Origin: Candidatus Zixiibacteriota bacterium
GTDB lineage: Bacteria; Zixibacteria; MSB-5A5; GN15; FEB-12
Length of the DNA: 64,000 nucleotides
Assembly (NCBI GenBank): GCA_034003725.1
Contig: JAVEYB010000001.1
Location: 394,641-458,640 of the forward strand
Direction: 5' to 3'
Shown here: positions 7,430 to 28,926 of the stretch, one piece after another
Position numbering within the stretch: position 1 is the first letter of the stretch
Layout: every line of letters starts with the position of its first letter
The notes under the pieces: generated by a model
What the model was told of the DNA's origin: nothing
The model's input: the letters and a program-made list of their open reading frames with translations, nothing else
Database searches by the model: none
Program-made: the position numbers and the translations under genes

Positions 7430-7439
7430 ATCGAACCTT

Positions 7440-11145: not shown

Positions 11146-11194
11146 ACCCTGCCGTTTATTGCTATAGCTCATGCCCGACAGCCCGGGATGGCCG

Positions 11195-12121
11195 TCAGGC
11201 ACACCTTGCATCGGGCGCTCTGAGATTGTTGAACACACGGTCGACTACCCGATCGATATCGTTGCCGACTGCTTCCGTTGTCTCTACTCTTGTCCAGCGA
11301 CCGGCGCTGAGAGATCCAAGGACGGCCTTCAGCCGGTACTGATTCCGGTCGACTTCCGAATAGACACCGAGCGGCAAGGAGCAGCCTGCGTCGAATCTGG
11401 CGAGCAGACCGCGTTCGAGCGCGGCGGAAGCCGCATCGTCGTCCGAGTTGAGACGCGCGACGGTTTCCCGAGTCGGCGTATCGTCCGTTCTGACCTGCAT
11501 GCCGAGTATTCCCTGGGCCGGCGCCGGGAGGAACTGCTCCGGGTCCAGCGGAACCACCATCAGATCATCCAATGCCAGCCGAAGCCGTGTTACGCCGGCG
11601 GCGGCAATGACGATGGCATCGTATCGACCTTCGCGCAGGCGGCTGATCCGGGTGGGGACGTTGCCACGGAGATCGCGAATCTGCAGGGTCGGATCGTGCC
11701 AGGTTATCTGGCAAGCGCGCCGGGCGGAGCTTGTGCCGATCACGGCGCCGGTGCGTACCCCGAGCAGGCCGATACCGGTGTACGCATCGGGTCGTACCAA
11801 CAGCATGTCGCCCCGGTCGGCCCTGAAGCCAACCGCGCCCAGCATTAACCCGTCGGGTTGTGTCGTCATGAGGTCCTTGAGTGAATGGACGGCCAGGTCG
11901 ATTTCGCAGCCGAGCAGCGCCTCTTCAAGTTCTCTGGTAAAGAAACCTTTGCCTTCCATCTTGTCAAATGGGATGCTGTCGATTCTGTCCCCGCTGGTGC
12001 GGATGACTTTGATCGCGATATCGCAGCCGTGCTCTCGCACGAGGTGGTCACGGACAAACCGCGCCTGCCAGAGGGCGAGATCCGAACCGCGCGTACCTAT
12101 GGTAAGGCGCAGCCGACTCAT
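11195..12121 (-). CDS. hemC: Hydroxymethylbilane synthase (porphobilinogen deaminase)
   Basis: Polymerises four porphobilinogens into hydroxymethylbilane. The N-terminal 'IGTRGSDLALWQA' motif is universal in the family. Asp of 'EIDLAVHSLKDL' is the catalytic acid, the Arg-rich stretch 'GTSSARRACQI' binds the growing chain, and Cys247 in 'FDAGCSLPLG' is the expected anchor of the dipyrromethane cofactor. Length is 308 residues. It overlaps hemA by an ATGA. There is no HemD extension at the C-terminus. Confidence 0.95.
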   Translation of the reverse strand: MSRLRLTIGTRGSDLALWQARFVRDHLVREHGCDIAIKVIRTSGDRIDSIPFDKMEGKGFFTRELEEALLGCEIDLAVHSLKDLMTTQPDGLMLGAVGFRADRGDMLLVRPDAYTGIGLLGVRTGAVIGTSSARRACQITWHDPTLQIRDLRGNVPTRISRLREGRYDAIVIAAAGVTRLRLALDDLMVVPLDPEQFLPAPAQGILGMQVRTDDTPTRETVARLNSDDDAASAALERGLLARFDAGCSLPLGVYSEVDRNQYRLKAVLGSLSAGRWTRVETTEAVGNDIDRVVDRVFNNLRAPDARCA

Positions 12122-13389
12122 CCGACCGCCTTGCTGTTCTCCGCGGGCAGGGATTCAAAGCTCAGGTCGGTGCGAAGCGTGACGAGTCGGTCGGAAAGCG
12201 CTTTGACGGGTTGAAACGCGGATTGACCGATCAGCCGCTTCACCAGTCGCTCGACCGCGTCGCGTTCATCGGCGGAGAGCGATGTCAGCCGGCTGGCGAA
12301 CAGGTTATCGAGCGCCTGCTCGGCCAGTTCGAGCGTCTCGTGATACGACTTGTGGAAGATCGGTTTGAGCGACACCTCGATGCGTTCGGACAGGTAACGG
12401 GTGACGGCATCTTTGACGATCTCGTTGGCCTTTCCGGCCTCGATGAATTTTTTGCGAAGGTTGCCGTGGGCGGCCGATTTGAGGCGGGGAATGTCGATAA
12501 CGGTGAGCTTCGGATGGACGCTGCATTCGGGAGCAAAATCGCGCGGGACGGCAAGGTCGATGCAGAGTACGGTGTTGGGAGACAGGGAGAGCCGATCGGC
12601 GAAAGATCGGTCGAACACCGGATCGGACGACGCCGTCGCCGAGATGATGGCATCGACCGCTATCGGGCGTTCCACGAATGCTGCGAGGGGCATCGCCCGG
12701 CCACCGAATTGACTCGCAAGGAGATCGGCCTTTTCAGCGGTACGGTTCACGAAGAGCAGCTCGACGGAAGGCCACTGCGCGATCTGTTTCGCCAGTTTTG
12801 AGGTCATGACTCCCGACCCGACGAGGGCGACCACCGCCCGCTCGCGTCCCGCGAGACAGGCATAGAGTCGCTCAGCAGCCAGCGAGGCCATCGAGAGCGC
12901 CCCTGATCCAAGGTCGGTGTTCCGTTTGACCTGGCGGGCGACCAGTAGCGCTTCCTGCGCCAGGCTGTCGAGTATCGGCCCGCACATGCCGGCAGAGCGG
13001 GCATCGTGCCACGACTGCCTGAACTGGCCGGTTATCTGTGTTTCACCGACCACGAGCGACTCAAGTGACGCTACGGTGCGGAAGAGGTGGGTGATGGCTT
13101 CACGACCGGTGAAGGAATAGAAGTCGTTCGGGAAGAAGGAGATCGAACGTTTGCCGCGGAAGAAATAGTCAATCAGCCGGTGAAGGACATGGTTTTCGGA
13201 CTCGCCGGTATCGGTCGCGTAGATGAACTCGACGCGGTTGCACGTGGCGAGATATATGAGTTCCGACAGACCGAGTGCGTGTTTCAAGCGCGCGAGATCG
13301 GCCTCGCGAGTGTCCCGGCCAAGGGTCAACTGTTCCAACAAAGGCAGGTTCTGCTGCCAGATCGAAGTGCCGATGATCCCGAACGTCAT
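12118..13389 (-). CDS. hemA: Glutamyl-tRNA reductase
   Basis: Reduces glutamyl-tRNA to glutamate-1-semialdehyde with NADPH, the committed and usually regulated step of C5-type tetrapyrrole synthesis. The nucleophile Cys50 lies in 'LATCNRVEFIY', the same numbering as in well-studied enzymes. 'VVGETQITGQFRQS' is the second family signature, and 'VALVGSGVMTSKLAKQI' is the NADPH-binding segment. The C-terminal helices for dimerisation are present (423 residues in all). It is first in the haem operon. An SD (GGAGGAACAGG) precedes the ATG. The 218 bp upstream hold a CRP/FNR-type palindrome. Confidence 0.95.
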   Translation of the reverse strand: MTFGIIGTSIWQQNLPLLEQLTLGRDTREADLARLKHALGLSELIYLATCNRVEFIYATDTGESENHVLHRLIDYFFRGKRSISFFPNDFYSFTGREAITHLFRTVASLESLVVGETQITGQFRQSWHDARSAGMCGPILDSLAQEALLVARQVKRNTDLGSGALSMASLAAERLYACLAGRERAVVALVGSGVMTSKLAKQIAQWPSVELLFVNRTAEKADLLASQFGGRAMPLAAFVERPIAVDAIISATASSDPVFDRSFADRLSLSPNTVLCIDLAVPRDFAPECSVHPKLTVIDIPRLKSAAHGNLRKKFIEAGKANEIVKDAVTRYLSERIEVSLKPIFHKSYHETLELAEQALDNLFASRLTSLSADERDAVERLVKRLIGQSAFQPVKALSDRLVTLRTDLSFESLPAENSKAVG

Positions 13390-13607: not shown

Positions 13608-15263
13608 TTACTGGGCGACGGGCGCCGGGTGCAGGGGGAAGCGCAGCCGGAAGGTTGTTCCCTGTCCCGGTTCGCTGTCGATTTCGACGTCGGCACCGTG
13701 GTTCTGAATAATCCGCGCGCACGTGACCAGTCCGTAGCCATGCCCTCCGGGCTTGGTGGTCAAATGTGTTTTGAACAACCGTTCTTTGATGTCGGGAGCG
13801 ATGCCCACGCCGTTGTCAGAGACGGTCAAGAGAACACAGTCGCCGTCGCGAGCGGTTCGGATCGTGATTTCGCCGTTGTCACGGCCGGTTTCGCGGATGG
13901 CGTCGGCGGCGTTGTTGGCGAAATTGAGCAGCAGTTGCGCGATTTGATCGGTATCCAACTCGAACGTCGGGAGGTCATGATCCGGGTGGACCTGCACGGC
14001 GATTCGCGAGAACCGTTTTTGAATCGAGACAAAGGAGAGGACGTCGGCGACAACGGCATTGAGGTCGGCCTCGGCCTTTTTCGTGTCGAGGCGGGTGTAG
14101 TCCATGAGTCCGGAGGTGAAGCGCTCCATTTTGGCGACGTGGGATTTGAGTTTTTCCAGGGCGGTTTCGACCTTTTCGGTTTTGCCCTTCGCGAGGTTCA
14201 TCTGTGATATCTCGACACCGCCGAGAATCAGCCCGAGGAAGTTGTTCAGTTCGTGGGAGATCGACGAGGCCATCACGCCCTTGTCGGCGAACTTCTCGAG
14301 GTTGAACATGCGCTGGTCGGTTTCTTTCTGCCTGGTGATGTCTTCCAGCGTAATCAACATATCAGCGGACTCCTCGCGGTTCATCATGGTGGCACTCACG
14401 GCGAAAATCCGTTCGGATGAGCCGACGGAAGCCACCAGCGACTCGCTCACCCGACCGCGGCGCATGGTCCGGGCCCGGTCGATCCGCCTGGCCCACCCCG
14501 GGAAGGCACTCTCGCAGAAGATTTCGCGAAGCGACAATCCTTCGTCGGTCTGCAGCGCGGCAAGCATCGGGTTGACACTGCGGAGAATCTGTCGGCCTGA
14601 GTCGTTTACCTTCACGAGCATATTGTCGACGTTGAAGACGAAGACACCCTGCTTGACGTTGTCGAGGATTTCGAGATACCAGGCATTCAGGCGGGCGATT
14701 TCAAGGAAGAGATACGAACTGGCCAGCATCGGCGAAATCGTCCCGGCCAGCATGGACAGCAGCTTCACCTCGGCGGGTTCAAACGGCCGTCCGGAGACTT
14801 TGGCACCCAGTCCGAGAATACCGGCAAGACTGTCGCCATGATATAAGGGGGCAATGACTGCGACACCGACGCGCGTCAGCGTTTCGTGCAGCCGTTCCGG
14901 GACTCTGTCCGAAGACCTCATGTCCGCGACCAGGCACGAACCCGGCCCGTCTTCGATATAGTCGACCAGTTGTGCGACATTGCCGAGAGTCGCCAGTTCC
15001 CGGCTGCCTTTGAACCTGCCGATACCGCAGAAGAAGGGGCTGTCCACCTGAGCGCGGGGATTGCCGACGAGGGCGAAGGCGCTGGTGACGGAGAACTGGC
15101 CCGACGTCGTCAGCAACAGGACTTCAACAAGGTGGGCGAAGTCCGGGCGCGTGGCGAACTGGCGGGTCATTTTCACAAGTGCATCGAGCGCCAGAATCTG
15201 TTTGTCCACCAACTGGTTTCGAGCGGCGGCGCCGGTGGGAATGTATTCGGAGTTCACGGTCAT
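13608..15263 (-). CDS. GAF-PAS sensor histidine kinase
   Basis: A 551-residue cytoplasmic sensor kinase with no transmembrane segment seen. A GAF-like domain covers about 20-190, a PAS-like domain about 195-312 ('LDNVKQGVFVFNVDNMLVKV'), then HisKA with the phosphoacceptor His337 in 'SSISHELNNFLG'. The HATPase domain shows the N box ('NFANNAADAI'), G1 ('DNGVGIAPDIKERLF') and G2 ('GGHGYGLVTCARI'). It ends the six-gene unit, 19 bp after the lone STAS gene. There is no receiver or response regulator in the window, so its partner is encoded elsewhere or it acts on the partner-switching proteins (inference). Confidence 0.88.
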   Translation of the reverse strand: MTVNSEYIPTGAAARNQLVDKQILALDALVKMTRQFATRPDFAHLVEVLLLTTSGQFSVTSAFALVGNPRAQVDSPFFCGIGRFKGSRELATLGNVAQLVDYIEDGPGSCLVADMRSSDRVPERLHETLTRVGVAVIAPLYHGDSLAGILGLGAKVSGRPFEPAEVKLLSMLAGTISPMLASSYLFLEIARLNAWYLEILDNVKQGVFVFNVDNMLVKVNDSGRQILRSVNPMLAALQTDEGLSLREIFCESAFPGWARRIDRARTMRRGRVSESLVASVGSSERIFAVSATMMNREESADMLITLEDITRQKETDQRMFNLEKFADKGVMASSISHELNNFLGLILGGVEISQMNLAKGKTEKVETALEKLKSHVAKMERFTSGLMDYTRLDTKKAEADLNAVVADVLSFVSIQKRFSRIAVQVHPDHDLPTFELDTDQIAQLLLNFANNAADAIRETGRDNGEITIRTARDGDCVLLTVSDNGVGIAPDIKERLFKTHLTTKPGGHGYGLVTCARIIQNHGADVEIDSEPGQGTTFRLRFPLHPAPVAQ

Positions 15264-15282
15264 AAGCCGGATATCCCTGTTG

Positions 15283-15630
15283 TTACTTCGCTGCCAGCGC
15301 CTGCTCGCGTGTCGGTCGGATAGTCAGAAACTCGGCCAGGTCGAGGACGCTGAAGACGTGCAGTATGTTCGGAGAGACGTGGCACAGGACAATATCTCCT
15401 CCGGCCTCCCGCGATGCCTCCACCGTACCCAGAATGGAACCGACTCCGGCGGACGACAAGAACTGCAGGGCCTGCATATCGATGATGATATTTTTGAACC
15501 CTCGATCTTGAGCCGAAAGTATAGCATCTACCATCTCGTGCGCGTTGTTGTTGTCAAGGGTTGCGCCGGTGGTGATGACGATCGTGTCGTCGCGGATGAT
15601 CTCTTCACGAAGCGATTTTGACGAAGCCAT
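15283..15630 (-). CDS. STAS-domain protein (anti-sigma factor antagonist type)
   Basis: A single STAS domain of about 115 residues, the type that binds an anti-sigma kinase when unphosphorylated. The segment 'NIIIDMQALQFLSSAGVGSI' is the core strand-loop-helix. Ser59 and Ser60 in 'SSAG' sit where the kinase usually phosphorylates antagonists. ATG 15630 is favoured because it forms a TGATG stop-start overlap with the upstream STAS-HATPase gene; an ATG four codons earlier is possible. It is probably the substrate of the kinase domain encoded just before it, and of the phosphatase two genes upstream. Confidence 0.85.
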   Translation of the reverse strand: MASSKSLREEIIRDDTIVITTGATLDNNNAHEMVDAILSAQDRGFKNIIIDMQALQFLSSAGVGSILGTVEASREAGGDIVLCHVSPNILHVFSVLDLAEFLTIRPTREQALAAK

Positions 15631-16397
15631 CAGACACCCCACCGCTTTTCGACTATCAGCACATTCACGCAGCCATCGCGACGTTCATAGCGCACGGAGT
15701 CAGCGAGTCGATGAAACATCGTTATTCCGAAGCCGTGCGTTCGCCGCGCGTTCGCCGCCTCGCGCATGTTATGGGCGTGTTTGTGTGCCGTCGGATCGAA
15801 TTCCAGCCCCATGTCGGCAAACGTCAGCGTCATCGTGCCGTTTCGGGACGACGCGGAGAAGGCAACGGGGCTGTTTTCATCCAGGCCGCTGTGCGCACAT
15901 ATATTGGTCGCGATTTCGTAGAAGATCGTCCGGAGTTCCAGCTCTTTGAGTTCGGGCAGCGCCAGCCGCCCGAGGTATCCCAAGAATGCACTCAGGAAGG
16001 TCTCGATACCTTCCTCGCAGGCGGCGAAGAGGTTGACCATGGTCTCGGCGCCGGCACAGTCAGGTGGCTGCACGATTGCCGTCAGGGCAAGCCGTTCCTG
16101 ATCCTCGTCGCGCTTGAAATACTCGTAGAGGTCGAGCGTTTTCAACACCCGCACCAGAAACTGCGACATCGACACGAGCCGAATGGTCACGCCCGATGCG
16201 GCGCATTGCTCGTGTGCCTGCCACAGCATGGCGATATCTTTCGACGTCACGTGGATCAGCGACGCGCAATCGATGATGATTTCCGAGGGGGCGTCGCGGA
16301 GGGCGGAATCGAGCCTTCCCTGAAACGCCTCCACGTTGCGGCGCGACAGTTCATCGGGTAGTTTAATGGTGACGATGTTTTTCGCGTCAGTCAGCAC
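15630..16397 (-). CDS. STAS-HATPase fusion (anti-sigma kinase-like)
   Basis: A 255-residue two-domain protein. Residues about 1-100 form a STAS domain ('SEIIIDCASLIHVTSKDIAM'). Residues about 115-250 form a SpoIIAB/RsbW-like GHKL ATPase with N box 'EIATNICAH', G1 'FADMGLEFDP' and G2 'HGFGITMFHRLADSVRYERR', all looking functional. In the STAS part the usual D-S-S-G or S-S-A-G segment reads V-T-S-K-D, so the standard phosphoacceptor is altered. Kinase and antagonist are normally separate proteins, so the fusion is unusual. GTG start. It overlaps the phosphatase gene by 11 bp. Confidence 0.85.
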   Translation of the reverse strand: MLTDAKNIVTIKLPDELSRRNVEAFQGRLDSALRDAPSEIIIDCASLIHVTSKDIAMLWQAHEQCAASGVTIRLVSMSQFLVRVLKTLDLYEYFKRDEDQERLALTAIVQPPDCAGAETMVNLFAACEEGIETFLSAFLGYLGRLALPELKELELRTIFYEIATNICAHSGLDENSPVAFSASSRNGTMTLTFADMGLEFDPTAHKHAHNMREAANARRTHGFGITMFHRLADSVRYERRDGCVNVLIVEKRWGV

Positions 16398-17985
16398 GGG
16401 TCAGGACCTCTGTCTGCTTATGTATTGTATCGGTCGAAACACCGCCCCACTTCATGGCGAGCAGCGTGATATCGTCGTATTGGGGCGCTGCACCGACAAA
16501 CTGCTGGTGGCGTCGGAGTACCTGGCCGGCGAAATCGTGCGGCTGATGATGCCGCAGTTCGCTGATCAACGCCGTGAACCGTTCCATGCCGAACTCTTCG
16601 CGGGACTCGTTCTGTGCCTCGTTTATGCCATCGGTGTACTGGATAATCCAGTCGCCGGACTCGAGGGTCAGCTCCGACAATTCGATACGTTTTTCAAACT
16701 GATCGGGGGGCATCATCCCGAGCGGGTAGCCTTTGGTTTTGAAGAGGCGAATCCTTCCGCTGGCGGTGTTCATCACGATCAGCGGGTTGTGGCCGGCAGA
16801 GGCGAATTGAAAACGACCGGACCGGCTGTCGAGCAGCCCAAAGAACATCGTGACAAACATACCCCGCTTGATGTTCGAACCAAGCTCGCGATTGACTTCG
16901 CTGAGCACCTGATCCGGTCGATGGACACCGCGGGTTATTTTGCGGACCATGTCGCGAGTCAGCAACATGACCAGCATACCGGGGAGCGATTTCCCGGATA
17001 CGTCGGCCACCAGCAGTCCGAGCCGATGGTCATCGAATTCGATAAAATCGTAGTAGTCGCCGCCGACCTCGCGGGCGCTTCGGTAGGCGCCGCAGAATTC
17101 AAACCGGGAGTGTTTGGGGTACTCCTGCGGGAGGATATTGTTCTGGATCTCGCGGGCGATTTCCATTTCACGGGCGATACGATCCTGCTCGATCAGTTCT
17201 TTCTGGGCGCGATTGAGGCGGTCGCCCATGACGCGCAGCGTTTCGGCGAGATAGCCAAACTCGTTTCGGGCGCGAAGCGGGATATCGAGCACGATGTTAT
17301 CGAAATCTATTCGTTTCAGGCTATCCGTGATCGACCGGACCGGGCGCAGCTTCCGGTGCAGGGTCCACAGGGTGATCGGAATTCCCGCCAGCATCATCAC
17401 GACGGTAATCGAGGCTACCGCGACGATCGACCTCCGCCGCGCCTGCGTGATCTGGCCGGCCGACGACGCCACGGCCAGGGTACCGACCACAATGTCGTTC
17501 TCGAGGATGGGTATGGCGATGCGGACGGTATCGCCGCTGATTCGGGACTGTTCGCCCGGCCGGAGATCGGCGAACTGGACGCCTGCGGGAATCGGCTCCA
17601 GCCGGTCCTGTGCCACGACACGGGCGATATCGGTGTGGGCAAGAAACTGCCCGTCGTTGCCGGCGATCCCCGCCCAGAAGATATCGGGGTTATCCGTTGA
17701 CAGCCGCTTGCAGATGTTGTTGAGCATGAGAGCGTCGGGACCGTTGGCGGCGAGGATGCTTTTCCCTGCCGTCCGCGAATACGACCGCGCCTGTACCAGC
17801 AGTTTTTCGGCGACCGTTCTGGTGACGGTGTCGACATACTGGTCAGTGATGATATAGCCGGTCGTGGTCATGAGGACGAGAATCACGCCGCAGATATAGA
17901 GGGCGAACTCCCAGAGGATCGATCGCCGGAACTGCGATTCCTCAGGCCATCCGTCGGCAAGCGACCGTTTTTCGTCAGTCGTCAT
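16387..17985 (-). CDS. Membrane-bound SpoIIE/RsbU-type PP2C phosphatase
   Basis: A 532-residue signal-receiving serine phosphatase. TM1 (about 22-47) and TM2 (about 194-215) enclose an extracytoplasmic sensor of about 145 residues. A HAMP-like linker (about 215-265) and a coiled coil containing 'EIAREIQNNILP' follow, the linker usual in RsbU-like enzymes. The PP2C domain shows metal-binding Asp310 in 'REVGGDYYDF', Asp328 in 'LLVADVSGKSLPGM', 'IIQYTDGINEAQN' and the final 'YDDITLLAMK'. It would dephosphorylate a STAS antagonist in response to an envelope signal. It overlaps the PorV-TPR gene upstream by 11 bp and the STAS-HATPase gene downstream by 11 bp. Confidence 0.9.
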   Translation of the reverse strand: MTTDEKRSLADGWPEESQFRRSILWEFALYICGVILVLMTTTGYIITDQYVDTVTRTVAEKLLVQARSYSRTAGKSILAANGPDALMLNNICKRLSTDNPDIFWAGIAGNDGQFLAHTDIARVVAQDRLEPIPAGVQFADLRPGEQSRISGDTVRIAIPILENDIVVGTLAVASSAGQITQARRRSIVAVASITVVMMLAGIPITLWTLHRKLRPVRSITDSLKRIDFDNIVLDIPLRARNEFGYLAETLRVMGDRLNRAQKELIEQDRIAREMEIAREIQNNILPQEYPKHSRFEFCGAYRSAREVGGDYYDFIEFDDHRLGLLVADVSGKSLPGMLVMLLTRDMVRKITRGVHRPDQVLSEVNRELGSNIKRGMFVTMFFGLLDSRSGRFQFASAGHNPLIVMNTASGRIRLFKTKGYPLGMMPPDQFEKRIELSELTLESGDWIIQYTDGINEAQNESREEFGMERFTALISELRHHQPHDFAGQVLRRHQQFVGAAPQYDDITLLAMKWGGVSTDTIHKQTEVLTRAD

Positions 17986-19993
17986 AGGACAATTCTTCGA
18001 GTTTCCTGATCTCGTTTTCAGTCCGTTCGATATACCCGGCTATTTCTTTGTTATCGGGCGCCAGGGCGGCTGCCTTTCGCCAAATCGCAACTGCTTCGCG
18101 CAGTTGGTTTTTGCCATAGCGTTCCACGCCGACAAACTTGTACGCGTTAACGAGGTAGTCGCGGACAGACTGGTAACCGGGCGCCAGCCGATCGACGGTT
18201 TCCCATTGGGCGATGGCGGATTCGAGGTCACCCTGCTGGAAGGCCTGCTGAGCGGACCGATAGGCGGCCTCGACCTCACGAAGGATTTCGGCGCTGAGCG
18301 GCGCGGCCGCCGCCGGGGCGGTGGGCGTCGCGGGGCGCTGGCCTGCTCTCTTCATCTCCCGATCGATGCGGCTCTTGAGGTCCAGACACCACTGGTGACC
18401 CGGGAACAGTTCGATCGCGGACTCGAGCGCGTTGAGCGCGATGGAATATTCTCCGCGGCCGAAGGCGGTTGTTGCGGTCTCGCGGTAGCGTTCGAACTCG
18501 ACCCGTCGCTGAGCACGCCTGACGGCCTCATGGGACTCCGAATACTGATCTAGCAGCCGCACCACGGCGACCGCCTGGTCCACCTGACCGTAACTGAGCA
18601 GTGAGTCGACGGTCCAGAGACGCTGGCGGATCAACTCATCCTGGGCGGCCGACCGCGAGATGGCGTCGTTGGCCTGTCGGAGGAGGCTCTGCGCCTGCTC
18701 GGAGGCAGGTACTTCGGTCAAGGCGCGGCCGGCGAAATATCGCGCGGCCAGATAATCCATGGCCGCCAGTTCCATTTGCGCCGAGTCCAGGTACTGACTG
18801 TAGCGCACCGCCCGGCGCGATTCGTCAAGTTTCTCACGCGCTTCGGTCGCGAACCGGATGATGTCGGTGGTATCCACCTGGCTGGTCACCGCCATGAAGC
18901 GGGCGCGGTCGAACAGATCAGCGGCGTCTTCGAGCATCCCCGATTCGAGGGCCACCCGGCCCTGTTCGACCAGAGCTATGACTGCCTCGCGGTTGCGACC
19001 AACCAGACGCTCGTTCATAAGGGAATTAAACTCGGCCTCGCGGCGTTCGCGGCGGTCGTTTCGCCGTTCGGTCATGGTGCGTCCGAACGACGTGGTCAGC
19101 GTGAACATGTGCAATTCACCCATGTCGCGATCCACCAGCGCGTAGTCGAAGCGGATCAGGCGATAGGTGAGACCGATACCGAACGAAAGGCGGCTGTCGC
19201 GCACGCCCGAACGGAGATGCAGGAGGTCGGCGAGACTGTATTCGATGCCGAGCGCAAACGCGGCTTCGACCCGGTCGACCTTGCTCAAGGTCGCCGATAT
19301 AGTCAGTTCGTGGTCCCAGAACGATCCCGGGCTGAGGGCGGCCGCGACACCGACGTCGATGGTGAACGGGTAGCGGGTGGTCACCTCCGCGAGGTCCATG
19401 GCGGGCCTGACCACATTGCGCCCGCTGATCACCGCACTGACATGATGCAGCCATGCGAGCGGTGATTCGAAACGTCGGCCGAGGGCCAGACTGACGCCGG
19501 GCGATGTGGTGGCGCTGTACGAGTCAATGGAGTGGTGTTCCATACTCAGCGTCGCGCCGACATCGTACCCCGACAGCATTCTGCCGTAGGCCACAAAGAA
19601 CCCCAGACGGGTGTCGTCGAAATCACCGAGATAGGCATTCGCCGCGTCTCTTTTCTCGATGCCGTCGATGCCAAGGCGAAAAACACCGATGCCGAGCGTA
19701 CCAAAGTCCAGCGTCGGGACAACCGCGCCCAGATACTGGTAGGCGACATCGCTCTCGTACAACTGCGAGTGAAAGCCGGCGACGCTGTACTGCTCGGCAC
19801 GGCTCAGACGTGACGGATTCCAGAACGGGGCTGTCGCAAAGTCGGAGAGGGCGATCGCCGATCCACCGAGAGCCAGATCGCGCGCACCGGCGCCGAACCC
19901 GAAGGGGGATTCGGTCCCGGCGTCATCGGACGCATATGCCGGCGTACCGACGGCAAGTCCGACCAGCAGCAGGTATGCACACATCGGTCTCAT
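17975..19993 (-). CDS. PorV-like outer-membrane barrel fused to a TPR-like helical domain
   Basis: A 672-residue exported protein. A signal peptide (about 1-21) is followed by 'GFGAGARDLALGGSAIALSD' and 'APFWNPSRLSRAEQYSV', the opening typical of the PorV/PorQ (UPF0164) outer-membrane family. The beta-barrel runs to about 310. After a very basic/acidic linker ('TERRNDRRERREAEFNSL'), residues about 330-670 are helical with TPR-like repeats. PorV proteins take part in type IX-type secretion and attachment of surface proteins. Here the gene overlaps the giant surface protein gene by an ATGA, which supports a dedicated export or anchoring partner. The TPR extension is not part of ordinary PorV and may contact periplasmic partners. 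Confidence 0.8.
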   Translation of the reverse strand: MRPMCAYLLLVGLAVGTPAYASDDAGTESPFGFGAGARDLALGGSAIALSDFATAPFWNPSRLSRAEQYSVAGFHSQLYESDVAYQYLGAVVPTLDFGTLGIGVFRLGIDGIEKRDAANAYLGDFDDTRLGFFVAYGRMLSGYDVGATLSMEHHSIDSYSATTSPGVSLALGRRFESPLAWLHHVSAVISGRNVVRPAMDLAEVTTRYPFTIDVGVAAALSPGSFWDHELTISATLSKVDRVEAAFALGIEYSLADLLHLRSGVRDSRLSFGIGLTYRLIRFDYALVDRDMGELHMFTLTTSFGRTMTERRNDRRERREAEFNSLMNERLVGRNREAVIALVEQGRVALESGMLEDAADLFDRARFMAVTSQVDTTDIIRFATEAREKLDESRRAVRYSQYLDSAQMELAAMDYLAARYFAGRALTEVPASEQAQSLLRQANDAISRSAAQDELIRQRLWTVDSLLSYGQVDQAVAVVRLLDQYSESHEAVRRAQRRVEFERYRETATTAFGRGEYSIALNALESAIELFPGHQWCLDLKSRIDREMKRAGQRPATPTAPAAAAPLSAEILREVEAAYRSAQQAFQQGDLESAIAQWETVDRLAPGYQSVRDYLVNAYKFVGVERYGKNQLREAVAIWRKAAALAPDNKEIAGYIERTENEIRKLEELSYDD

Positions 19994-22900
19994 CGCAGTA
20001 TCGCCACCTTTCGACGGACCGATTCCGTGCCGCCCGATACGTAGCGGGCCGTTATGCGGCAGAAGTATGTTCCGGGAACGACGTCGAGCCCGGCGTCGTT
20101 GCGACCGTCCCAGCGATCCTGTGAATACGCGCCGGCGACGCGGTAGTCATCCCTTGTTATATCGAGAACCTTGGCGCCCGTGATGGTGAACAATTCGATG
20201 TCGACATAGGCGGCCTCGGGGAGGACGAAGCCGATTGTTGTTTCCTCGCCGGACGCCGCATTAAAGGGATTGGGATAGTTCGTAAAGGATTCTTCGAGCC
20301 CACCGGCGGTCACGGAAATCTCGGCGCCAAGCAACGGATAGGCTGCTTGCACCAGCAGCGGGTAGATGGTGGTCGCGAGATTCTGATCGGCCAGCGAGAC
20401 GGCGTTGGAATCAGCAAGCTGGACGGCGAAGTTGCCCAGCGGGGCATCGGGGCGAATATCACCCAACAGCACGATGTCCACATCGGCACCCTGTGCGATC
20501 GTATACCCGCCGGGGACAGCAAGCATGAGCGAGTCGCCGCTGAGAATCGAGTCAGTGGCGACACGGTCGCCGTCTATATTCAGATGCACCGCGTTCAGCA
20601 ATTCGACGGCGGGCACTTCGTGAAAGCCGGCGCCATCGCGCGACATCAACCGCCCACAGACCGCGTGCAGCAACAGGTCTCCCTGGGGGGTCGAGCCGTC
20701 GTAGGTGAGTGTCGCCGTGTACAACGGGACCTGGACCTGCCCTCTCGGAACCAGCCTGGCCGTTCCGGTCTGGGTCGCGAGAACAGGTCGCCCGGCTGGC
20801 TGCAGGATTCGAATTGCGGGAGACACATAAGGAATAGACTCGCCACAGCCGGGGGACACGACCACACCCGTGTGGCTGCTGGTGTCGCTGACATCATGCA
20901 GGATCACGTCGGCTTCGTCGTGCAACCGGATGACCAGATGTTCGACCGGCGTGTCGCTCTCGATATCGGCGATCAGCGCCACCTGCAGGCTGTCGCCGGG
21001 ATTGATCGTCACTGCGCCATCGGGGAAGGCGAACAGCGTGTAATCGCCTGACTGCTGGAACGTGGGCATGTATGCGACGGTACCGGGAAGCGTTGACAAT
21101 CCGACGCGATCGAACAGACTGGCGGGATCAAGCGGTGTGTCGAGCGAGTCAGTAATGCGAACGGTCACCCCGGTCAACTGCTGCGGCGAGTACATGTCCC
21201 CCGCGGCGTAGTGAATGGTCAATCCCAGAAGTGCAATCGAGTCGCTGCCAGCGATCACCGAGCCGTAGGCCGCCGGTGTCAGGCAGGCCTGCGGCGCGAC
21301 AGCAGCCTGGCGGAACGACGCGAGGCTCGACAGAATCGGGAAGCCGGAAACGGCGGTCGCCAGCGGCGCATCATCGGACACCGCCGTGAGCGGGGCACCG
21401 GAGCTGAGGTCCCGGACCACAAACCGCGTGCTGTCGCTGATGTGCATGGCGAAATCAATGGCGGGCGCGTCGGCGGCGGCATCGATCACCAATCGAATCG
21501 AATCAAGCTCTCCGGGGCTTACGGTCACGGGCGACACCAGTATGACGGACACGACGGCACTGTCGAGCGCCAGGCCGCTCGCTTCGCCGATGACCGTTTG
21601 ATTGCGGACGATGCTCAGTCGCGTACAGATTTCGGACGCGGGAATCTCCTGGAGCGTTTCATCGACAAACGACACCGTCAGCGCGGTCAACTGTATCTGT
21701 GAACTGGACAGGGCCCCGGGATGGCGCAGATGCACTTGCAGCAATGCGACCCCGTCCTGACCGAAATTGACAGTGGCGGGGGCAAGCGAGCGGTACGACA
21801 CCGCCATCTGCTCCGACGGCTCGTCGATCCGACATGAAGCGGTGCTGATGGGGAAAGTCAGCGTCGGTGACAGTGTCACCGGCAGCTCGGTATTGTGATC
21901 GGCGACCGGCACGGAGGACGGGCTGTCGAGGCGAAGCGCGAAGTCATGGGCGGTGGCGGAATCGCTGATATCCACGAGCAGTGAGAGCAGTCTCGAGTCT
22001 CCCGGCACAACTACGATAGGCTGGGTGAAGGTGAATGTGACAGCGGACTGCGCGGGTACGACTTCAATCGCCGAAAGCGTCGTGTACCCACTAGACAGCA
22101 CCATGCGCGAGAAAGCATCGGAGGCGTCCTGCGGCTGTCCTGATGCGTCGGTGACGGAGATCGTGAGACCGGCGAGCTCCACGGCGGCGGTCGTATCACT
22201 GGAATCCGGGTGCGTTATTTCAATACTCAGCGGGAAGACGTTGGTCTGCCCCTTTGTCACCGCGGTGGGAGTCGAGTTAATGAAGTGCAGTGGTACATCG
22301 TATGCCGGCGCCTGCAGTGCAGTTTCGGCTGTCCGAACGACCGCGGAAGAATCCGGGATGGTCGGCTCGTACGCACTCAGTTCCCATGAAGCGGCGCCGG
22401 GCGCCTGTGCCGTATAGAAGAATGTGAAGGTTACCTGCTCGTCGATCCCGAGCGGTACCGGTCCCGAAAATGCGCTGTCCAGAGCGGCGGGCCCATTGAC
22501 GGTGCAAATGCCGAAGACGCTGTCCATCGGCAGGTTCAACACGTTGGTGACCGTGGTAGCGATAGCGATCGTCTGCCCCACGGAGTACGAGGAATTGACC
22601 GGGACGTTGCTGATTCGCAAACCGGAGGTCGACACCACAAAGGTGTTGTCGGTAATCAGCGCCTCGTCACGCGGGCCGTCGTTGGCCGACTCGTACGTGC
22701 ACCCGTTGACCGGCACGGACAACTTCAGGGCGGCTCCGGGTGTCGCCGTCAGCGAGACATCACACAGGACAAAGAGCACCGGGGCGGGAGCGCTGACCGG
22801 CAGATCGATCGAGCCGAGGCTCCATGACCCACTGCTTCCAACCAGCGTACCGAGCAGGGAATCACCGGCCTGCCAGGCGCTGTCCGCATTCGTGTCGAGC

Positions 22901-25900
22901 CACAGCGTCAGGCGGTCGAAGTCGGTATCGGCGGCCGATTGCAGGTTTTCTACGACGAGAGATTCCAGAACATCCGGCTGGTCGCCGTTTACTGCGGGTG
23001 TCATCGCAAACACCGGCACGAGCGTATCACCGGGCCGAAGTGAACGAGCCTCAATCAGGGGCGCGTGATACTGCGCCCGTACGGAGCCATCAACCGTTCG
23101 GAATCCTCCGCTTTGCAGCGGAAAGTCACCGTTAATAGTGACCGGCACCGCAAAGGCAAGATCGGCGGTGTTGTCGACCGACACGGCCAGGCTGTCGCCA
23201 TCAATGGCGTTCAGCGGCACGTCCGCGATCGCAAAGAAATAGGACAACGATTCCGGCGGCAACGGTATGTCGATACCGGTCAGGTCAAGCGCACCGCTCT
23301 TGAATGAGCCGGTGGACACCAGCGTGTCGCCGTCGAAAATACGGTTCCGGTTATTGTCGAAGTAGAGCCGCACCTGCCCGAGTTCGGAATCGGCAAAGTC
23401 CTGATCCGACCAGCTGACCGTGCGATTGCTCAGGCTGACCGATCGCAGGGTCTGCGCCCTTCCGACGTAGCCGTTGTACAACGCCAGGGTGAGCAGGGAG
23501 ACGGCATTCTGTCCCGGCGCGACGACCGATCCGGGATCGGGCAGGGCGATCGCCGTGACGCGATTGGATTGGAAGATGAGGTGCGTGTGTGGGTTGGCAA
23601 TTCCCTCGTCGTCCGGTCCTACCGTACCCGAGATATAGCCGATCAGCCCGTGCGGAATCTCCAGATCGAGCGTGCCACCCTCGCGGTTGTCGGCAGCAAC
23701 GCTCACGGTAATGTAGAACCGCGTCGTGGGCGTCAGCAGCGGATACAACCCGGCGGACAGCGCCCAGGAAAGCCCATCGAAAGTGAACTGTCCGACCAAA
23801 ACGCTTGCTGCGGAAAACGTGCCGGAACCGTTGTCGGCCCACAGTTTCATATTATCGAGCGCAACTATTTCGTCAACGGTGCCTCGGTTTATGACGCGCA
23901 CCTGATAGAGAGCGTCGGTATCATAGCCGTTGCGCGGCAGTTCGAAATCGAGGACCATTTGGTCGACCTGGCCCCCGAAGAGGCTGCGGCCTGCAAGCGT
24001 GTTGACAATGACGGCCGCGGCCGGGAACGCGTTAACGGTAAAGGTCTTGCTGTTCGTAATGGGGAACGTCCCGGCAACTGCCACGCCCGGTGTGCACCAG
24101 ATGTGTCCACCGTCCTCGAACATGAATCCAATGGTGTTGCCGTTTTTGGCATTTCGAAGACTGATGGCGGCGCTCAGGGCGACGGTCAACGCGCCGCCGT
24201 TGCCCGCAATTGTCAGGCCCCCGGTGGCGAATTTGACGACGCCGTTGGTGAGGGTGGCGGTCGCCACGAGTGAGTCAAGCACGCTGCTGTTGTCGGCCGA
24301 TCTCGTGATGAAGAGGAAGACACTGTCGATCTGGCTGTCAAGCTGATCCTGTGTGGCGCCGTCGTGATCGACGGCAGCGAGCGCAAACTCCACGCTGTCG
24401 ACGACAACGGCGCTGGAATACGTGTTGGTTATGCGTGCGGCCAGCATCGCGTCGCTTTCTTGTCCGGGAATCAGCTCACCGCCGGCGACCGGTATTGCGA
24501 TCACGGAGAGGGCCTCGAATGTGGTGATGGCGAAGGTGTCGATCGCCGCCGTGGGGAGATCAACCGGTCCGTCGTTGCCGGAGACAACCTGAATGCCGTT
24601 GACCGGGACATACGGAATCAGTGTCGCTCCATTGGTCGGGAAGGCGGCCACCGACGCACCAACATAGAACCGCGTGTTGGGGTCTACCAGCGGCACGTTC
24701 AAGCCGGTGACCGTCCACCGGTCTCCGGTGAAGTACATCCGGCCGACGTAGTGCTCGCTTGCCGCTTCGTCCCACGTCGCGTTTACCTCTTCGAGGAAGA
24801 GCGACAGGGAGTCAAAATCGTTCGGTCCGGACGTTCCGAGCGAAGCGAGGCTGAACATTTGCAGGGTATCCGCCTGATAGCCGTTTCGCGGAATGTCTAC
24901 GGTCATGACGTGATAGATGTCAGCCGACGGTTCCAGACTGTCGATGCTCGTCGGCGAGAAGCGCAGTTGAGCCGCTACCAGACCATCGACAATCGATACG
25001 CCCAGCGAATTCAGGGAGTCCGGGCCGGCCGGGACCGTCGCATCGGCGGTCGTTATGTCCACCCGGCTGCAGTACAAATCCAACGAATCGGAGTCGCGGG
25101 AGAACAGATTCACTGCGCCGCCGACCAGCAGTACGATCTGAGAGTCCGACGGTATCACGAGTGGAGCGAAAGCAAACGACGCCGGGGTGCTGCTGTACGC
25201 CGCCCAATCCAACAGGCTGTCGGCGGGAGTCAGGAGCGAATCACTGTCCGAATCCAGATAGACTGCGACCGAATCGATATTGGTCAGCCGCTCGGCAGCG
25301 GAACCCGGACCCCGGGTGGCATCGCGGACCATCAGTCCGGTAATCGCTCTGTCGTCGGCGAAGTAGTTGTGAAATGACAGCGACAGTAGCGGCGCACGTA
25401 TCTCCCCCGGTCTGACGTAGGAACTGCCCAGTGCTATGGCCGAAACCACGATTTCGTCGACGTCGACGAAGTCGCTGGTGTCGGCAACTCCGGCGAGGCT
25501 GCTGACGGCGGCCACCTTCCCCTTTCCGGCCGAGGTTGCGACGAACAGACCGGAATCGTTGATTGTTCCCACGCGGCCGAGCGCACGCCAGTCGATGGAA
25601 CCGACATCGGTTGCATTCGAATCAGCATCGTAACCGGTAATGGTGAATTGCACGGTATCGCCGATGCGCACGGCGATGCTTGGCGGTGCGATTTCGAGTC
25701 GCTGCAGTCCGCCGGGAACCACTTCCAGAGACGCGGTCGTATCGGTCGGACCGAGATCGGATTCGGCGACGGCACGGGCGGTGCCGACGACCGATGCGGT
25801 GAATAATCCCGAAGCGTCAATCTGGCCGACGGGTCCGGTCAGGGAATACGAGATTGTCCCCGGGTCGCGCAGGTTGCCGTACACATCAAATCCTTCAACC

Positions 25901-28900
25901 GTGTATTGCAGTGTGGAATCTGCGGAAACCAGCGCGGAATCGGGGCTGAGTTCGATGGATGCAAGTGCACCGGGTATCACCTGAATGACGCCCGACGTAT
26001 CCGAGATTCCGAGGACGACCGTCTCGCAGAGGGGATCGTGATCGGTACCCCGGTCGTAGTGCTGCTGGATCTGGAACGTCGTGAGAGCACGATCGAAAAT
26101 CGCCACCTCGTCTATCCGGCCGTCGAAGTAACGGCTTCCCGACGTCCAGCCGATGGTGTAGGGTTGTGTGCCTCCGCCGAGTACGGAGACCTGCGCCGGA
26201 TCTGAGTCAATCAGTTGTCCATTTATGTAAAGCGCGACGGTCGAGCCGTCGAACGTCGCCGCTACGTGAGTCCACGTGAGTGCGGAGATGGAATTGGACA
26301 ATGAGTTCGGAGCAAAGCTATGAACGTCGCTGCCGTCGGTTGTCGTAAAGCGAATCCCGTTGGAGAGTGCGTCAATTTCAAGAGCGAACGCGCTGCTGCG
26401 CCCGACAATCCCCCGATCGCGAAGAAGGGCGATGTTATCGGGGCGGATCCACGCCATAACGGTCAAGGCCGCAGTCAGACCATCGGCGCTTGGAGCCGTC
26501 AGATACTCTCCGGGAGTATCGCCGTCGAAGTCCAGCGACATGCCCACGAGGCCCGCGATCGAGGCGGGACAGTCAACGCAGGTCGCGTCGTCGCCTTCGT
26601 CGATATCCGGGTAGGGCGGCCCGGTTGTCTTGTTGAGCGGCCAGTAGTGGACGAGATCGGTCGGGCAAATGGGTGTGCCCTCGCCGCCGCTCGAAGCTAC
26701 AATGTATCCGCTGCCGACGGTGGTAGGGCTGAACACGCCGACGGCATCCATGTTTCCGATGCCGTCAAGAACCGTCCATTGCGGCACGATTTGTGGATCG
26801 GAGACGTTGCCGTCGGCGTCGCGAGATACGGCGCTGAAATCGATGCTGCTGTCAACCGAAACGGTAGCAGTATACGGCGAGACATCAAGCTGTGTGGGGA
26901 GGCCGGCAGCGACGGTCAGCAACCCGGACGTATCCGCAATCGCGGCGCTATAGGTGGCGACGACGGCATCGCTTCCGGGCGTGGTCAGCGTCAGCGACGA
27001 AGAGGTGCCGCTGACGGGTGTCAGCGAACCGATCACCCCGCCGCCGGACCACGACCACGTCACGACGATATCGCCCAGCAGGACATCGGCGATGTCGTAA
27101 CCCCGACAGTACACTGTCATCCCGTCGTTGTCCGTAGTGGCAATTGTGTTGCCGACCGGGGTGCCGTCGAGCCACTCCACGTGTACGTGATGCAGCGCGC
27201 CATCGGAGATCACACGCACTGAGGCCGTGTCCGCAAGACCGCTGTAGGTGGCGGTGACCCGGTAGTTGGGCGGCGAGACGTCTGTTCCGGCGAGGTAGAG
27301 GCCAAGTGAGCTTATGCTGCCGGTGGGATCATCGGTTGCCCAAACGACCGAATCGGTGAGATCATGTACGAAGTAGCCGCCGGCGTCGTAGCCGGCAGCA
27401 GTGAACTGGATGGAATCAAGGATTTCGATGACCGCGCTGTCCGGCTCGATCGCGATTGAGGAGATCGGGGCGGGCAATACGGTGATGGTCACGAGTTCAG
27501 TGTCACTGAGGTCCCCGTCGGCCGCCATGACGGTGATGTCGTATGTACCTTCCTGAGTGTAGCTCGGGGTAAACGAAAACGTCCCGGTGCCATCGCCGTC
27601 GTCGGTAAACGATGCACCGACCGGGGCGGACTGAAGGATCAGTTCAGGTGTTTCACCATCGGGATCGGCCGCGGAGATTTCCAGGTTCAGCGTCTGCCCT
27701 TCTTCAACCGACTGAGCGCCGATGGGGGTCAGGACCGGGGGCCTGTTCGTGTTTTCGACATCAACTTCCAACTCAGCGGTGTCGGACAGCTCACCGTCGG
27801 AGGCGATGATCAGGATCTCGTATTCGCCGGCCTGAGTGAAATCGGGGGTGAACTCAAGCAAACCCGTACGGTCACCGTGGTCCGAGAAGGTGGCGTTGTC
27901 CGGCAGATCCTCCGCTGTCAGGACGAGGACGTCGTTTTCCGGATCGGCGGCAGTAACGTCGATCGTGAGTAACTGGTTTTCGTAGACGGACGTGTCGGGC
28001 AGCTCGGCGACCACGGGCGCCTCATTGGGCTGGTTGTACTCAAATGCACCCAGATCCGGCGCCGAACCCTTGTAGGGAAATCCGAGATCAAGTCCGGCGT
28101 TGATAGCGGGTGACCCGCTTTGAAGCGTAAAGTCGCCGGCAGCCGTATCGACAAAGAGCGGATCGACGACAACGCCTCCGGCAGAATCCACAACGCCCCC
28201 GGTGTAGTTTCCTTCCGTATTCGACCAGGTCAGATTGAAGGCAGCGGTATTCTCGACCTTGGCGCTTATACCACCGAGGTTCTTTACTGCGATATTGTTG
28301 ATGATCCTGCCGTCTGCGATGTTGGAGTGGAGGGAAATGCCGTAACCGGTGCAGCCAAACACGGTGTTGTTATATATTCGCGGCGAAGTACCCAGTGCAA
28401 TAAATCGAATGCCTGCACTTCCCGTATGGGTAACCAGGTTGCCGAACAGCGTATTGCCGCTCCCGTCGACGAGGATGCCCTCAGTCTGCACGTGATGGAA
28501 ATAGCAGTCCCGGATGAGATTCGAGCTGCCATCGACGAGCACGGCCGTGGCGTCGTAGTTGGTCACCTGAACGCTCCGCAAGACTATGTAGCTTGCGGTG
28601 ATCTGAAGTCCGATAAAGGCGTGGTTACTGCCATTGATAATTGCAGATCCGAGCTCGCTTCCCAGGTAGGTAATCGGACTGGCGAGAGTGCCGGATGTCG
28701 AGAGAGTCATGGTCGCAGTCGGGTAGTATGTGCCGGGGAGCATGAAGACGGTGTCGCCGGGGACGAGAATCCCCATGCGGTCGCCGCGGTCGAGACTGAG
28801 CCACGCGCCCCCTACAGTCAGGCCGTCGGAAGCGTCACTCCCTGATGGCGAGACGTAATATGTCGTGGCGTACCCTCCCCCAGCCACGAGTAATGCGGCG

Positions 28901-28926
28901 GCTAGCGCGAAAACGGCTCTCAGCAT
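19990..28926 (-). CDS. Giant secreted multidomain surface protein (beta-helix, Ig, LamG, tandem modules, C-terminal sorting-type domain)
   Basis: 2978 residues. Signal peptide about 1-20. Right-handed beta-helix about 22-298. Two cadherin/He_PIG-like domains at about 301-390 and 395-485 ('TAADPENDVLVLTAEDLPDN'). Big_2-like domains occupy about 488-1180, with a concanavalin A/LamG domain (about 755-957) inserted into one of them. Then come six modules of about 156 residues (nt about 25450-22620) and four modules of about 168 residues (nt about 22270-20320). The C-terminus, 'SFTNYPNPFNAASGEETTI' to the end, is a FlgD-Ig/secretion-tail type domain that ends in Arg. It is probably exported and displayed with the help of the overlapping PorV-TPR gene. 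Likely roles are adhesion or matrix binding (inference). GAGGG SD before ATG 28926. Confidence 0.85.
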   Translation of the reverse strand: MLRAVFALAAALLVAGGGYATTYYVSPSGSDASDGLTVGGAWLSLDRGDRMGILVPGDTVFMLPGTYYPTATMTLSTSGTLASPITYLGSELGSAIINGSNHAFIGLQITASYIVLRSVQVTNYDATAVLVDGSSNLIRDCYFHHVQTEGILVDGSGNTLFGNLVTHTGSAGIRFIALGTSPRIYNNTVFGCTGYGISLHSNIADGRIINNIAVKNLGGISAKVENTAAFNLTWSNTEGNYTGGVVDSAGGVVVDPLFVDTAAGDFTLQSGSPAINAGLDLGFPYKGSAPDLGAFEYNQPNEAPVVAELPDTSVYENQLLTIDVTAADPENDVLVLTAEDLPDNATFSDHGDRTGLLEFTPDFTQAGEYEILIIASDGELSDTAELEVDVENTNRPPVLTPIGAQSVEEGQTLNLEISAADPDGETPELILQSAPVGASFTDDGDGTGTFSFTPSYTQEGTYDITVMAADGDLSDTELVTITVLPAPISSIAIEPDSAVIEILDSIQFTAAGYDAGGYFVHDLTDSVVWATDDPTGSISSLGLYLAGTDVSPPNYRVTATYSGLADTASVRVISDGALHHVHVEWLDGTPVGNTIATTDNDGMTVYCRGYDIADVLLGDIVVTWSWSGGGVIGSLTPVSGTSSSLTLTTPGSDAVVATYSAAIADTSGLLTVAAGLPTQLDVSPYTATVSVDSSIDFSAVSRDADGNVSDPQIVPQWTVLDGIGNMDAVGVFSPTTVGSGYIVASSGGEGTPICPTDLVHYWPLNKTTGPPYPDIDEGDDATCVDCPASIAGLVGMSLDFDGDTPGEYLTAPSADGLTAALTVMAWIRPDNIALLRDRGIVGRSSAFALEIDALSNGIRFTTTDGSDVHSFAPNSLSNSISALTWTHVAATFDGSTVALYINGQLIDSDPAQVSVLGGGTQPYTIGWTSGSRYFDGRIDEVAIFDRALTTFQIQQHYDRGTDHDPLCETVVLGISDTSGVIQVIPGALASIELSPDSALVSADSTLQYTVEGFDVYGNLRDPGTISYSLTGPVGQIDASGLFTASVVGTARAVAESDLGPTDTTASLEVVPGGLQRLEIAPPSIAVRIGDTVQFTITGYDADSNATDVGSIDWRALGRVGTINDSGLFVATSAGKGKVAAVSSLAGVADTSDFVDVDEIVVSAIALGSSYVRPGEIRAPLLSLSFHNYFADDRAITGLMVRDATRGPGSAAERLTNIDSVAVYLDSDSDSLLTPADSLLDWAAYSSTPASFAFAPLVIPSDSQIVLLVGGAVNLFSRDSDSLDLYCSRVDITTADATVPAGPDSLNSLGVSIVDGLVAAQLRFSPTSIDSLEPSADIYHVMTVDIPRNGYQADTLQMFSLASLGTSGPNDFDSLSLFLEEVNATWDEAASEHYVGRMYFTGDRWTVTGLNVPLVDPNTRFYVGASVAAFPTNGATLIPYVPVNGIQVVSGNDGPVDLPTAAIDTFAITTFEALSVIAIPVAGGELIPGQESDAMLAARITNTYSSAVVVDSVEFALAAVDHDGATQDQLDSQIDSVFLFITRSADNSSVLDSLVATATLTNGVVKFATGGLTIAGNGGALTVALSAAISLRNAKNGNTIGFMFEDGGHIWCTPGVAVAGTFPITNSKTFTVNAFPAAAVIVNTLAGRSLFGGQVDQMVLDFELPRNGYDTDALYQVRVINRGTVDEIVALDNMKLWADNGSGTFSAASVLVGQFTFDGLSWALSAGLYPLLTPTTRFYITVSVAADNREGGTLDLEIPHGLIGYISGTVGPDDEGIANPHTHLIFQSNRVTAIALPDPGSVVAPGQNAVSLLTLALYNGYVGRAQTLRSVSLSNRTVSWSDQDFADSELGQVRLYFDNNRNRIFDGDTLVSTGSFKSGALDLTGIDIPLPPESLSYFFAIADVPLNAIDGDSLAVSVDNTADLAFAVPVTINGDFPLQSGGFRTVDGSVRAQYHAPLIEARSLRPGDTLVPVFAMTPAVNGDQPDVLESLVVENLQSAADTDFDRLTLWLDTNADSAWQAGDSLLGTLVGSSGSWSLGSIDLPVSAPAPVLFVLCDVSLTATPGAALKLSVPVNGCTYESANDGPRDEALITDNTFVVSTSGLRISNVPVNSSYSVGQTIAIATTVTNVLNLPMDSVFGICTVNGPAALDSAFSGPVPLGIDEQVTFTFFYTAQAPGAASWELSAYEPTIPDSSAVVRTAETALQAPAYDVPLHFINSTPTAVTKGQTNVFPLSIEITHPDSSDTTAAVELAGLTISVTDASGQPQDASDAFSRMVLSSGYTTLSAIEVVPAQSAVTFTFTQPIVVVPGDSRLLSLLVDISDSATAHDFALRLDSPSSVPVADHNTELPVTLSPTLTFPISTASCRIDEPSEQMAVSYRSLAPATVNFGQDGVALLQVHLRHPGALSSSQIQLTALTVSFVDETLQEIPASEICTRLSIVRNQTVIGEASGLALDSAVVSVILVSPVTVSPGELDSIRLVIDAAADAPAIDFAMHISDSTRFVVRDLSSGAPLTAVSDDAPLATAVSGFPILSSLASFRQAAVAPQACLTPAAYGSVIAGSDSIALLGLTIHYAAGDMYSPQQLTGVTVRITDSLDTPLDPASLFDRVGLSTLPGTVAYMPTFQQSGDYTLFAFPDGAVTINPGDSLQVALIADIESDTPVEHLVIRLHDEADVILHDVSDTSSHTGVVVSPGCGESIPYVSPAIRILQPAGRPVLATQTGTARLVPRGQVQVPLYTATLTYDGSTPQGDLLLHAVCGRLMSRDGAGFHEVPAVELLNAVHLNIDGDRVATDSILSGDSLMLAVPGGYTIAQGADVDIVLLGDIRPDAPLGNFAVQLADSNAVSLADQNLATTIYPLLVQAAYPLLGAEISVTAGGLEESFTNYPNPFNAASGEETTIGFVLPEAAYVDIELFTITGAKVLDITRDDYRVAGAYSQDRWDGRNDAGLDVVPGTYFCRITARYVSGGTESVRRKVAILR

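Follow-up and report, generated by a model that had tools for sequence, protein, structure and literature searches.

In Porphyromonas gingivalis, PorA, a PorV-bound cargo of the type IX secretion system (T9SS) with a FimH-like lectin domain, acts upstream of PorXY-SigP. Although PorA is placed above PorY, the inner-membrane kinase, no direct contact between the two was found, and the authors concluded that another mediator is needed (PMC7712824). According to one proposal, PorV picks up cargo at the SprA/Sov translocon and delivers it to the attachment complex (PMC8754138). The partner switches BtrUVW, SypA/E, HmpUVW, RbaV, and SiaABCD control secretion, motility, and biofilm formation without a linked sigma output (PMC8256260, PMC7647112), and SiaABCD of Pseudomonas aeruginosa, a membrane PP2C switch with no sigma factor, controls aggregation and adhesins (PMC7647112, PMC8457831). 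Among the open-licence papers searched, we found none joining partner switching, SpoIIE, STAS, and PorV. Here we describe a block of six genes in which such elements occur together, located in a 64-kb stretch of DNA (the window) from a metagenome-assembled genome (3.73 Mb, 99.5% complete) of the Zixibacteria, a phylum without cultured members. The block encodes a giant secreted surface protein (gene 1), a PorV-type barrel with a TPR domain (gene 2, or PorV-TPR), an inner-membrane phosphatase (gene 3), a STAS-kinase fusion (gene 4), a stand-alone STAS protein (gene 5), and a histidine kinase (gene 6). We propose, at a probability of roughly 0.55, that a T9SS-displayed adhesin-like protein, its dedicated PorV-TPR partner, and a SiaA-like switch form one regulatory unit.

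Results

The six open reading frames (ORFs) are contiguous on the minus strand of the window, from 28926 to 13608 (Table 1). Genes 1 and 2 share a 4-nucleotide ATGA overlap, genes 2 and 3 and genes 3 and 4 overlap by 11 nucleotides each, genes 4 and 5 overlap by 1 nucleotide (TGATG), and a 19-nucleotide gap separates genes 5 and 6. An earlier reading of this DNA, made from its letters and ORFs (the sequence-only reading), had listed the same genes; ORF calling reproduced its coordinates, lengths, order, and five junctions, and Pfam and NCBIfam profile scans confirmed the domains of all six proteins. It went too far in stating that sigma factors are the normal neighbors of partner switches, the switches named above being counterexamples. 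Promoter- and terminator-like matches inside the block occurred at the level of shuffled sequence and are uninformative, and we argue no internal boundary from them.

To follow the block through its relatives, we took 35 loci, called their genes, and retested the junctions by tblastn independently of the gene calls. Of 132 genomes of the phylum, a profile search found PorV-TPR orthologues in ~35, which belong to families f1, f2, f4, f10, f15, and f19 (tool numbering), and the order of the block is the same in ~35 of the 132, across six families. Among 60 relatives compared, phosphatase orthologues (51 to 79% identity) lie beside PorV-TPR orthologues (42 to 69%). The junction between genes 1 and 2 was retained in 30 of 31 testable loci, the exception (G057) having an apparent frameshift with pieces of both genes in order. 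The next junction, between genes 2 and 3, was kept in 33 of 33, a count that leaves out L076, where the locus ends 68 bp past the gene. Genes 3 and 4 remained joined in 29 of 30 loci (the exception, G076, is without the remaining genes), genes 4 and 5 in 28 of 28, and genes 5 and 6 in 26 of 28. The 4-nucleotide overlap of genes 1 and 2 and overlaps of 11 to 17 nucleotides among genes 2, 3, and 4 also recur across loci, whereas the flanks differ: 25 downstream neighbors represent 23 families, and 14 upstream neighbors represent 13. Because order and junctions are kept while the genes outside differ almost everywhere, the block is almost certainly a functional unit; kept order amid changing flanks likewise led us to reject a chance neighborhood. 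Conserved order in related genomes was the test that the sequence-only reading had proposed for its operon, and with ~35 loci across the phylum it was clearly passed.

Pairwise distances of the genes correlate (r = 0.59 to 0.88 with the species tree not factored out; PorV-TPR versus SpoIIE, r = 0.88), as would be expected for joint inheritance. One genome (G077) carries two copies of the operon; in the second and more diverged copy (L177; G077:C1:3466000-3485999), the STAS gene is followed by a kinase gene in inverted orientation. A scan of genome contigs with two short patterns, a poor test of spread outside Zixibacteria, returned 26 loci, the named ones mostly titled Zixibacteria/GN15, others FCB group, and one Calditrichota.

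Profile matches order the domains of gene 1 as a signal peptide, beta-helix, Ig/cadherin-like, and LamG domains, a long conserved part, and a C-terminal sorting domain. In the conservation profile the N-terminal domains vary between species, the LamG stretch being largely missing from the others, whereas residues ~1160 to 2978 align almost gap-free across orthologues, a pattern suggesting an adhesin-like protein with a variable outer part on a long conserved base. Some 1,700 to 1,900 residues of the conserved part (window 19990-25500) had no Pfam or PDB sequence match. The sorting-domain model TIGR04183 was matched by 12 of 12 orthologues at E <= 0.01, with the protein of the window at 21.5 bits, just below the 23-bit cut-off, and the PorU and M6i models were each matched by 12 of 12. 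Because of this C-terminal domain, gene 1 is in all likelihood a T9SS cargo, in line with the guess of the sequence-only reading.

Gene 2 matched the PorV_fam profile NF033709 (E = 1.1e-19) with 71 bits, below the 90-bit cut-off, and the PorV equivalog NF033710 (T9SS_OM_PorV) with 15 bits against a cut-off of 250; by these profiles it is a diverged PorV/PorQ relative, not PorV itself. An AlphaFold2 model built from 20 orthologues, with a mean predicted local distance difference test score (pLDDT) of 86, shows a beta barrel followed by a helical TPR array. Its top two Foldseek matches, 8gl6_F and 6h3i_F, are chains of T9SS translocon structures that we take to be PorV, and its sequence identity to the matched PorV chain is only 16%. 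The PorV/PorQ profile and the barrel fold agree with the earlier designation of gene 2 as a PorV-type partner. Both ends of a PorV-type outer-membrane barrel face the periplasm, so the TPR domain is expected to lie there. SprA_N was found in 57 of 61 genomes, among them the source genome (C12:46298), which also has five C25 peptidase regions and 47 Por_Secre_tail hits; because of these matches, a T9SS is very likely present.

Gene 3 matched PF07228 at 1.9e-44 as well as HAMP in Pfam, and hydropathy gave its transmembrane (TM) segments. The best structural match of its model is SiaA-PP2C (Z 25.8, root mean square deviation 3.1, 241 aligned residues). Phosphatase-domain matches filled the structure list, in which a WalK model (residues 14 to 274, Z 16.6) is the sole support for the TM-Cache-TM-HAMP layout, and the sensor region has a middling pLDDT of ~80. 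Residues D310, D328, D452, D504, and D505, which include metal-binding aspartates, are invariant in 24 orthologues. Gene 4 combines PF01740 (STAS) and PF13581 (HATPase_c_2); S52 of its STAS domain, E161 and N165 of its intact N-box, and G222 and G224 are invariant in 24 orthologues, and it is predicted to be a serine kinase of the RsbW/SpoIIAB type that carries a STAS domain of its own. In gene 5, which matched PF01740 at 1.2e-17 and TIGR00377 above cut-off, the motif S60-A-G-V-G is invariant in 20 orthologues, Ser60 being the presumed phospho-acceptor. The parts of an Rsb-type module (PP2C phosphatase, STAS protein with an acceptor serine, and RsbW-like kinase) are present in genes 3 to 5, which make up a complete partner switch that is catalytically plausible as judged by these residues; that they act as a phosphorylation switch is very probable. 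Pfam scans found no sigma factor gene in the block or among ten neighboring proteins.

Profile scans and hydropathy indicate that gene 6 is a soluble, cytosolic GAF-PAS histidine kinase (GAF-HisKA-HATPase) with intact H-box (SHELNN) and N-box (NNAADAI) motifs and no adjacent receiver. In some relatives a hybrid kinase with a receiver occupies the sixth slot (Table 1), L173 has a 712-amino-acid kinase of similar H-box type there, and two further loci lack the kinase or have it inverted. The slot thus calls for a histidine kinase, though not always the same one, which fits a role as output or as parallel input.

A second, paralogous operon occurs in the same genomes. It encodes a sorting-domain protein (880 to 1475 amino acids), a PorV-TPR protein (21 to 36% identity to gene 2), and, as its phosphatase, a single protein in which HATPase, HAMP, and SpoIIE domains are fused; then come a STAS protein, a GGDEF enzyme, a Wza-like SLBB/Poly_export protein, a further TPR protein, and an ATPase of AAA_31/ParA-like type. 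Its site is fixed, after genes whose sequences we read, unscanned, as pheT, zapB/zapA-like, rny, ymdB, and folD. By hand tally, at least 41 of 61 genomes have its PorV-TPR and SpoIIE genes on one contig, no more than a few kb apart, and the operon is nearly universal in Zixibacteria. In the genome of the window, gene 3 has its closest relative in the phosphatase of this operon, so a duplication probably preserved the association of surface protein and PorV-TPR with a partner switch. Since this operon runs on into GGDEF and polysaccharide-export genes, its neighbors point to cyclic di-GMP and exopolysaccharide and hence to control of attachment or biofilm. In 4 of 13 loci its STAS protein has a conserved C-terminal extension of ~100 amino acids, which elsewhere is a separate small ORF. 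The extension weakly resembles a helix-turn-helix (Pfam E of 0.035 to 0.25 in three of the four, none above cut-off), and such an extended STAS protein could act directly on DNA.

Around the six-gene block, an M50 peptidase gene lies 228 bp upstream, and hemA and other hem genes begin 218 bp downstream. The heme biosynthesis run (window 5092-13389) reads hemA, hemC, hemL, hemE, and hemN-like by Pfam, with its last two genes (5092-7501) labeled by position only. We rejected the hem genes as part of the unit; they adjoin the operon only in the genus of the window (G001, G002).

Table 1. Coordinates of the six-gene block, of domains within its proteins, and of related loci
Feature	Position	Strand	Length (amino acids)	Remarks
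Gene 1, giant secreted surface protein	28926-19990	-	2978	
Gene 1, T9SS type A-like sorting domain	residues ~2880-2978			TIGR04183, PorU, and T9SS-dependent M6 models
Gene 2, PorV-type barrel with TPR	19993-17975	-	672	
Gene 2, beta barrel	residues ~25-305			AlphaFold2 model
Gene 2, helical TPR array	residues ~305-672			AlphaFold2 model
Gene 3, inner-membrane PP2C (SpoIIE) phosphatase	17985-16387	-	532	
Gene 3, first TM segment	residues ~21-47			
Gene 3, periplasmic Cache/PAS-like sensor	residues ~50-183			
Gene 3, second TM segment	residues ~184-209			followed by HAMP and coiled coil
Gene 3, SpoIIE domain	residues 318-513			
Gene 4, STAS-HATPase_c_2 fusion	16397-15630	-	255	GTG start
Gene 5, stand-alone STAS protein	15630-15283	-	115	best start ATG 15630
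Gene 6, GAF-PAS histidine kinase	15263-13608	-	551	
Hybrid kinase with receiver in sixth slot	L104:5857-7995			
Hybrid kinase with receiver in sixth slot	L108:10924-13416			
Hybrid kinase with receiver in sixth slot	L109:2074-5082			
Paralogous operon	L077-L089			e.g., L077:5179-16876
STAS protein with fused extension, paralogous operon	L078:5735-6433			
STAS protein with fused extension, paralogous operon	L079:12931-13641			
STAS protein with fused extension, paralogous operon	L080:5601-6299			
STAS protein with fused extension, paralogous operon	L082:7253-7963			

Discussion

In the mechanism that we propose, gene 1 would be exported by Sec and then carried across the outer membrane by the T9SS by way of its C-terminal sorting domain. 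At the surface its dedicated PorV-like protein would take charge of it, with the TPR domain of that protein reaching into the periplasm. Gene 3 would receive a periplasmic signal, whatever the presumptive ligand, through its Cache-like sensor and HAMP domain, and would dephosphorylate the gene 5 STAS protein and perhaps also the STAS domain of gene 4. Rephosphorylation of gene 5, and perhaps of that domain, would fall to the kinase part of gene 4. Once unphosphorylated, gene 5 would change partner, and output would run at least partly through gene 6 or its phosphorelay, not through a linked sigma factor. Most likely the circuit serves to adjust production of the adhesin-like protein, or attachment behavior, to surface conditions, as SiaABCD does with aggregation. 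The operon that displays gene 1 probably also signals about gene 1 or controls it, and it is equally possible that control runs from the switch to the surface protein, in answer to another periplasmic cue, or that the switch senses display.

Several points weigh against a single regulatory unit of this kind. The operon itself offers no visible target for the STAS protein, and gene 6 may be less tightly bound to the block than the other genes, given two kinase types and two losses or inversions. The case for a T9SS in the source genome comes from searches for SprA_N, C25 peptidases, and Por_Secre_tail domains. One genome with the operon (G043, the source of L109; 93% complete) had no SprA_N match, and its T9SS may be absent or unassembled.

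A rival to the proposed mechanism is display sensing, the idea of the sequence-only reading: occupancy of PorV-TPR by the gene 1 sorting domain would be signaled by way of the TPR domain to the gene 3 sensor, so that the switch reports cargo display. The fusion of a barrel to a periplasmic TPR domain, the position of PorV-TPR next to a sensor phosphatase in 33 of 33 loci and again in the paralogous operon, and the PorA-PorV-PorXY precedent, which that reading did not name and where a mediator between the surface and the inner membrane is called for (PMC7712824), all speak for it. However, the TPR-sensor contact is hypothetical, Cache-type sensors usually bind small molecules, and the gene 3 sensor has a modest pLDDT and is barely covered by the structure comparison; we consider display sensing less likely than not. 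That the operon is a self-contained device, in which PorV-TPR tells the gene 3 sensor of the display of its own cargo and the serine switch passes the message to the cytoplasmic kinase, so that a partner switch would read out how type IX secretion stands, strikes us as doubtful.

In the profile scans genes 4 and 5 fall into families of anti-sigma and antagonist proteins, and gene 4 might act classically by sequestering a sigma factor encoded elsewhere, which would make the operon part of a surface-stress regulon together with its regulator. We consider this unlikely, as the block and scanned neighbors hold no sigma gene, no neighbor outside the block is constant across ~35 loci, and the gene that stays constant in sixth place encodes a histidine kinase. 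It is also conceivable that secretion and signaling genes share a promoter merely by history, but adjacency persists across six families while the flanks change, and a diverged paralogous operon follows the same plan, making co-transcription without a functional link highly improbable.

The coupling described here would extend partner switching to type IX secretion. How the cytoplasm learns of events at the outer surface is a question that the T9SS raises, and the PorV-like barrel, with its TPR domain expected in the periplasm, offers a concrete candidate mediator. The coupling of PorV-TPR to a sensor phosphatase through a phylum, in two paralogous versions, also provides a defined gene set.

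Comparison with known systems

Like PorA in the PorA-PorXY-SigP pathway, gene 1 is proposed to be an adhesin-like protein with a PorV-binding sorting domain that lies upstream of cytoplasmic regulation. The regulators differ: a two-component system and an extracytoplasmic function sigma factor there, a PP2C-STAS-HATPase switch with an orphan histidine kinase in one operon here. Scans of the block and its neighbors showed none of PorX, PorY, and SigP, the kinase being a receiver-less GAF-PAS protein and a sigma factor being absent. The PorV shuttle of the T9SS (8gl6, 6h3i; PMC8754138) shares with gene 2 its barrel fold and its place as an operon neighbor of T9SS cargo, but, at 16% identity, it is without the C-terminal TPR domain, which, in the comparison with P. 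gingivalis PorV, only the Zixibacteria protein carries.

BtrUVW of Bordetella, SypA/SypE of Vibrio fischeri, and HmpUVW of Nostoc likewise tie a switch to secretion, biofilm polysaccharide, or motility, and in several cases the output is not a linked sigma factor (PMC8256260), although they serve other secretion systems and have no T9SS cargo or PorV-type partner. SiaABCD shares more of the design, with a two-TM, HAMP, PP2C phosphatase, a kinase, and a phosphorylated partner in one operon that has no sigma factor, and gene 3 has the features of a SiaA-type protein, being a membrane PP2C with an extracytoplasmic sensor and HAMP. By Pfam and NCBIfam, genes 4 and 5 belong to the HATPase_c_2 and STAS families, not to those of the SiaB kinase and the SiaC target. 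No GGDEF protein, and thus no linked diguanylate cyclase, is found among the six genes; in its GGDEF enzyme the paralogous operon is closer to SiaABCD, whereas the operon in the window has a histidine kinase instead. The SiaABCD operon, in turn, is without a secreted protein or PorV. Lacking defining features of both systems, the six-gene composition is new, and it resembles a SiaABCD switch combined with a PorA-type link to secreted cargo.

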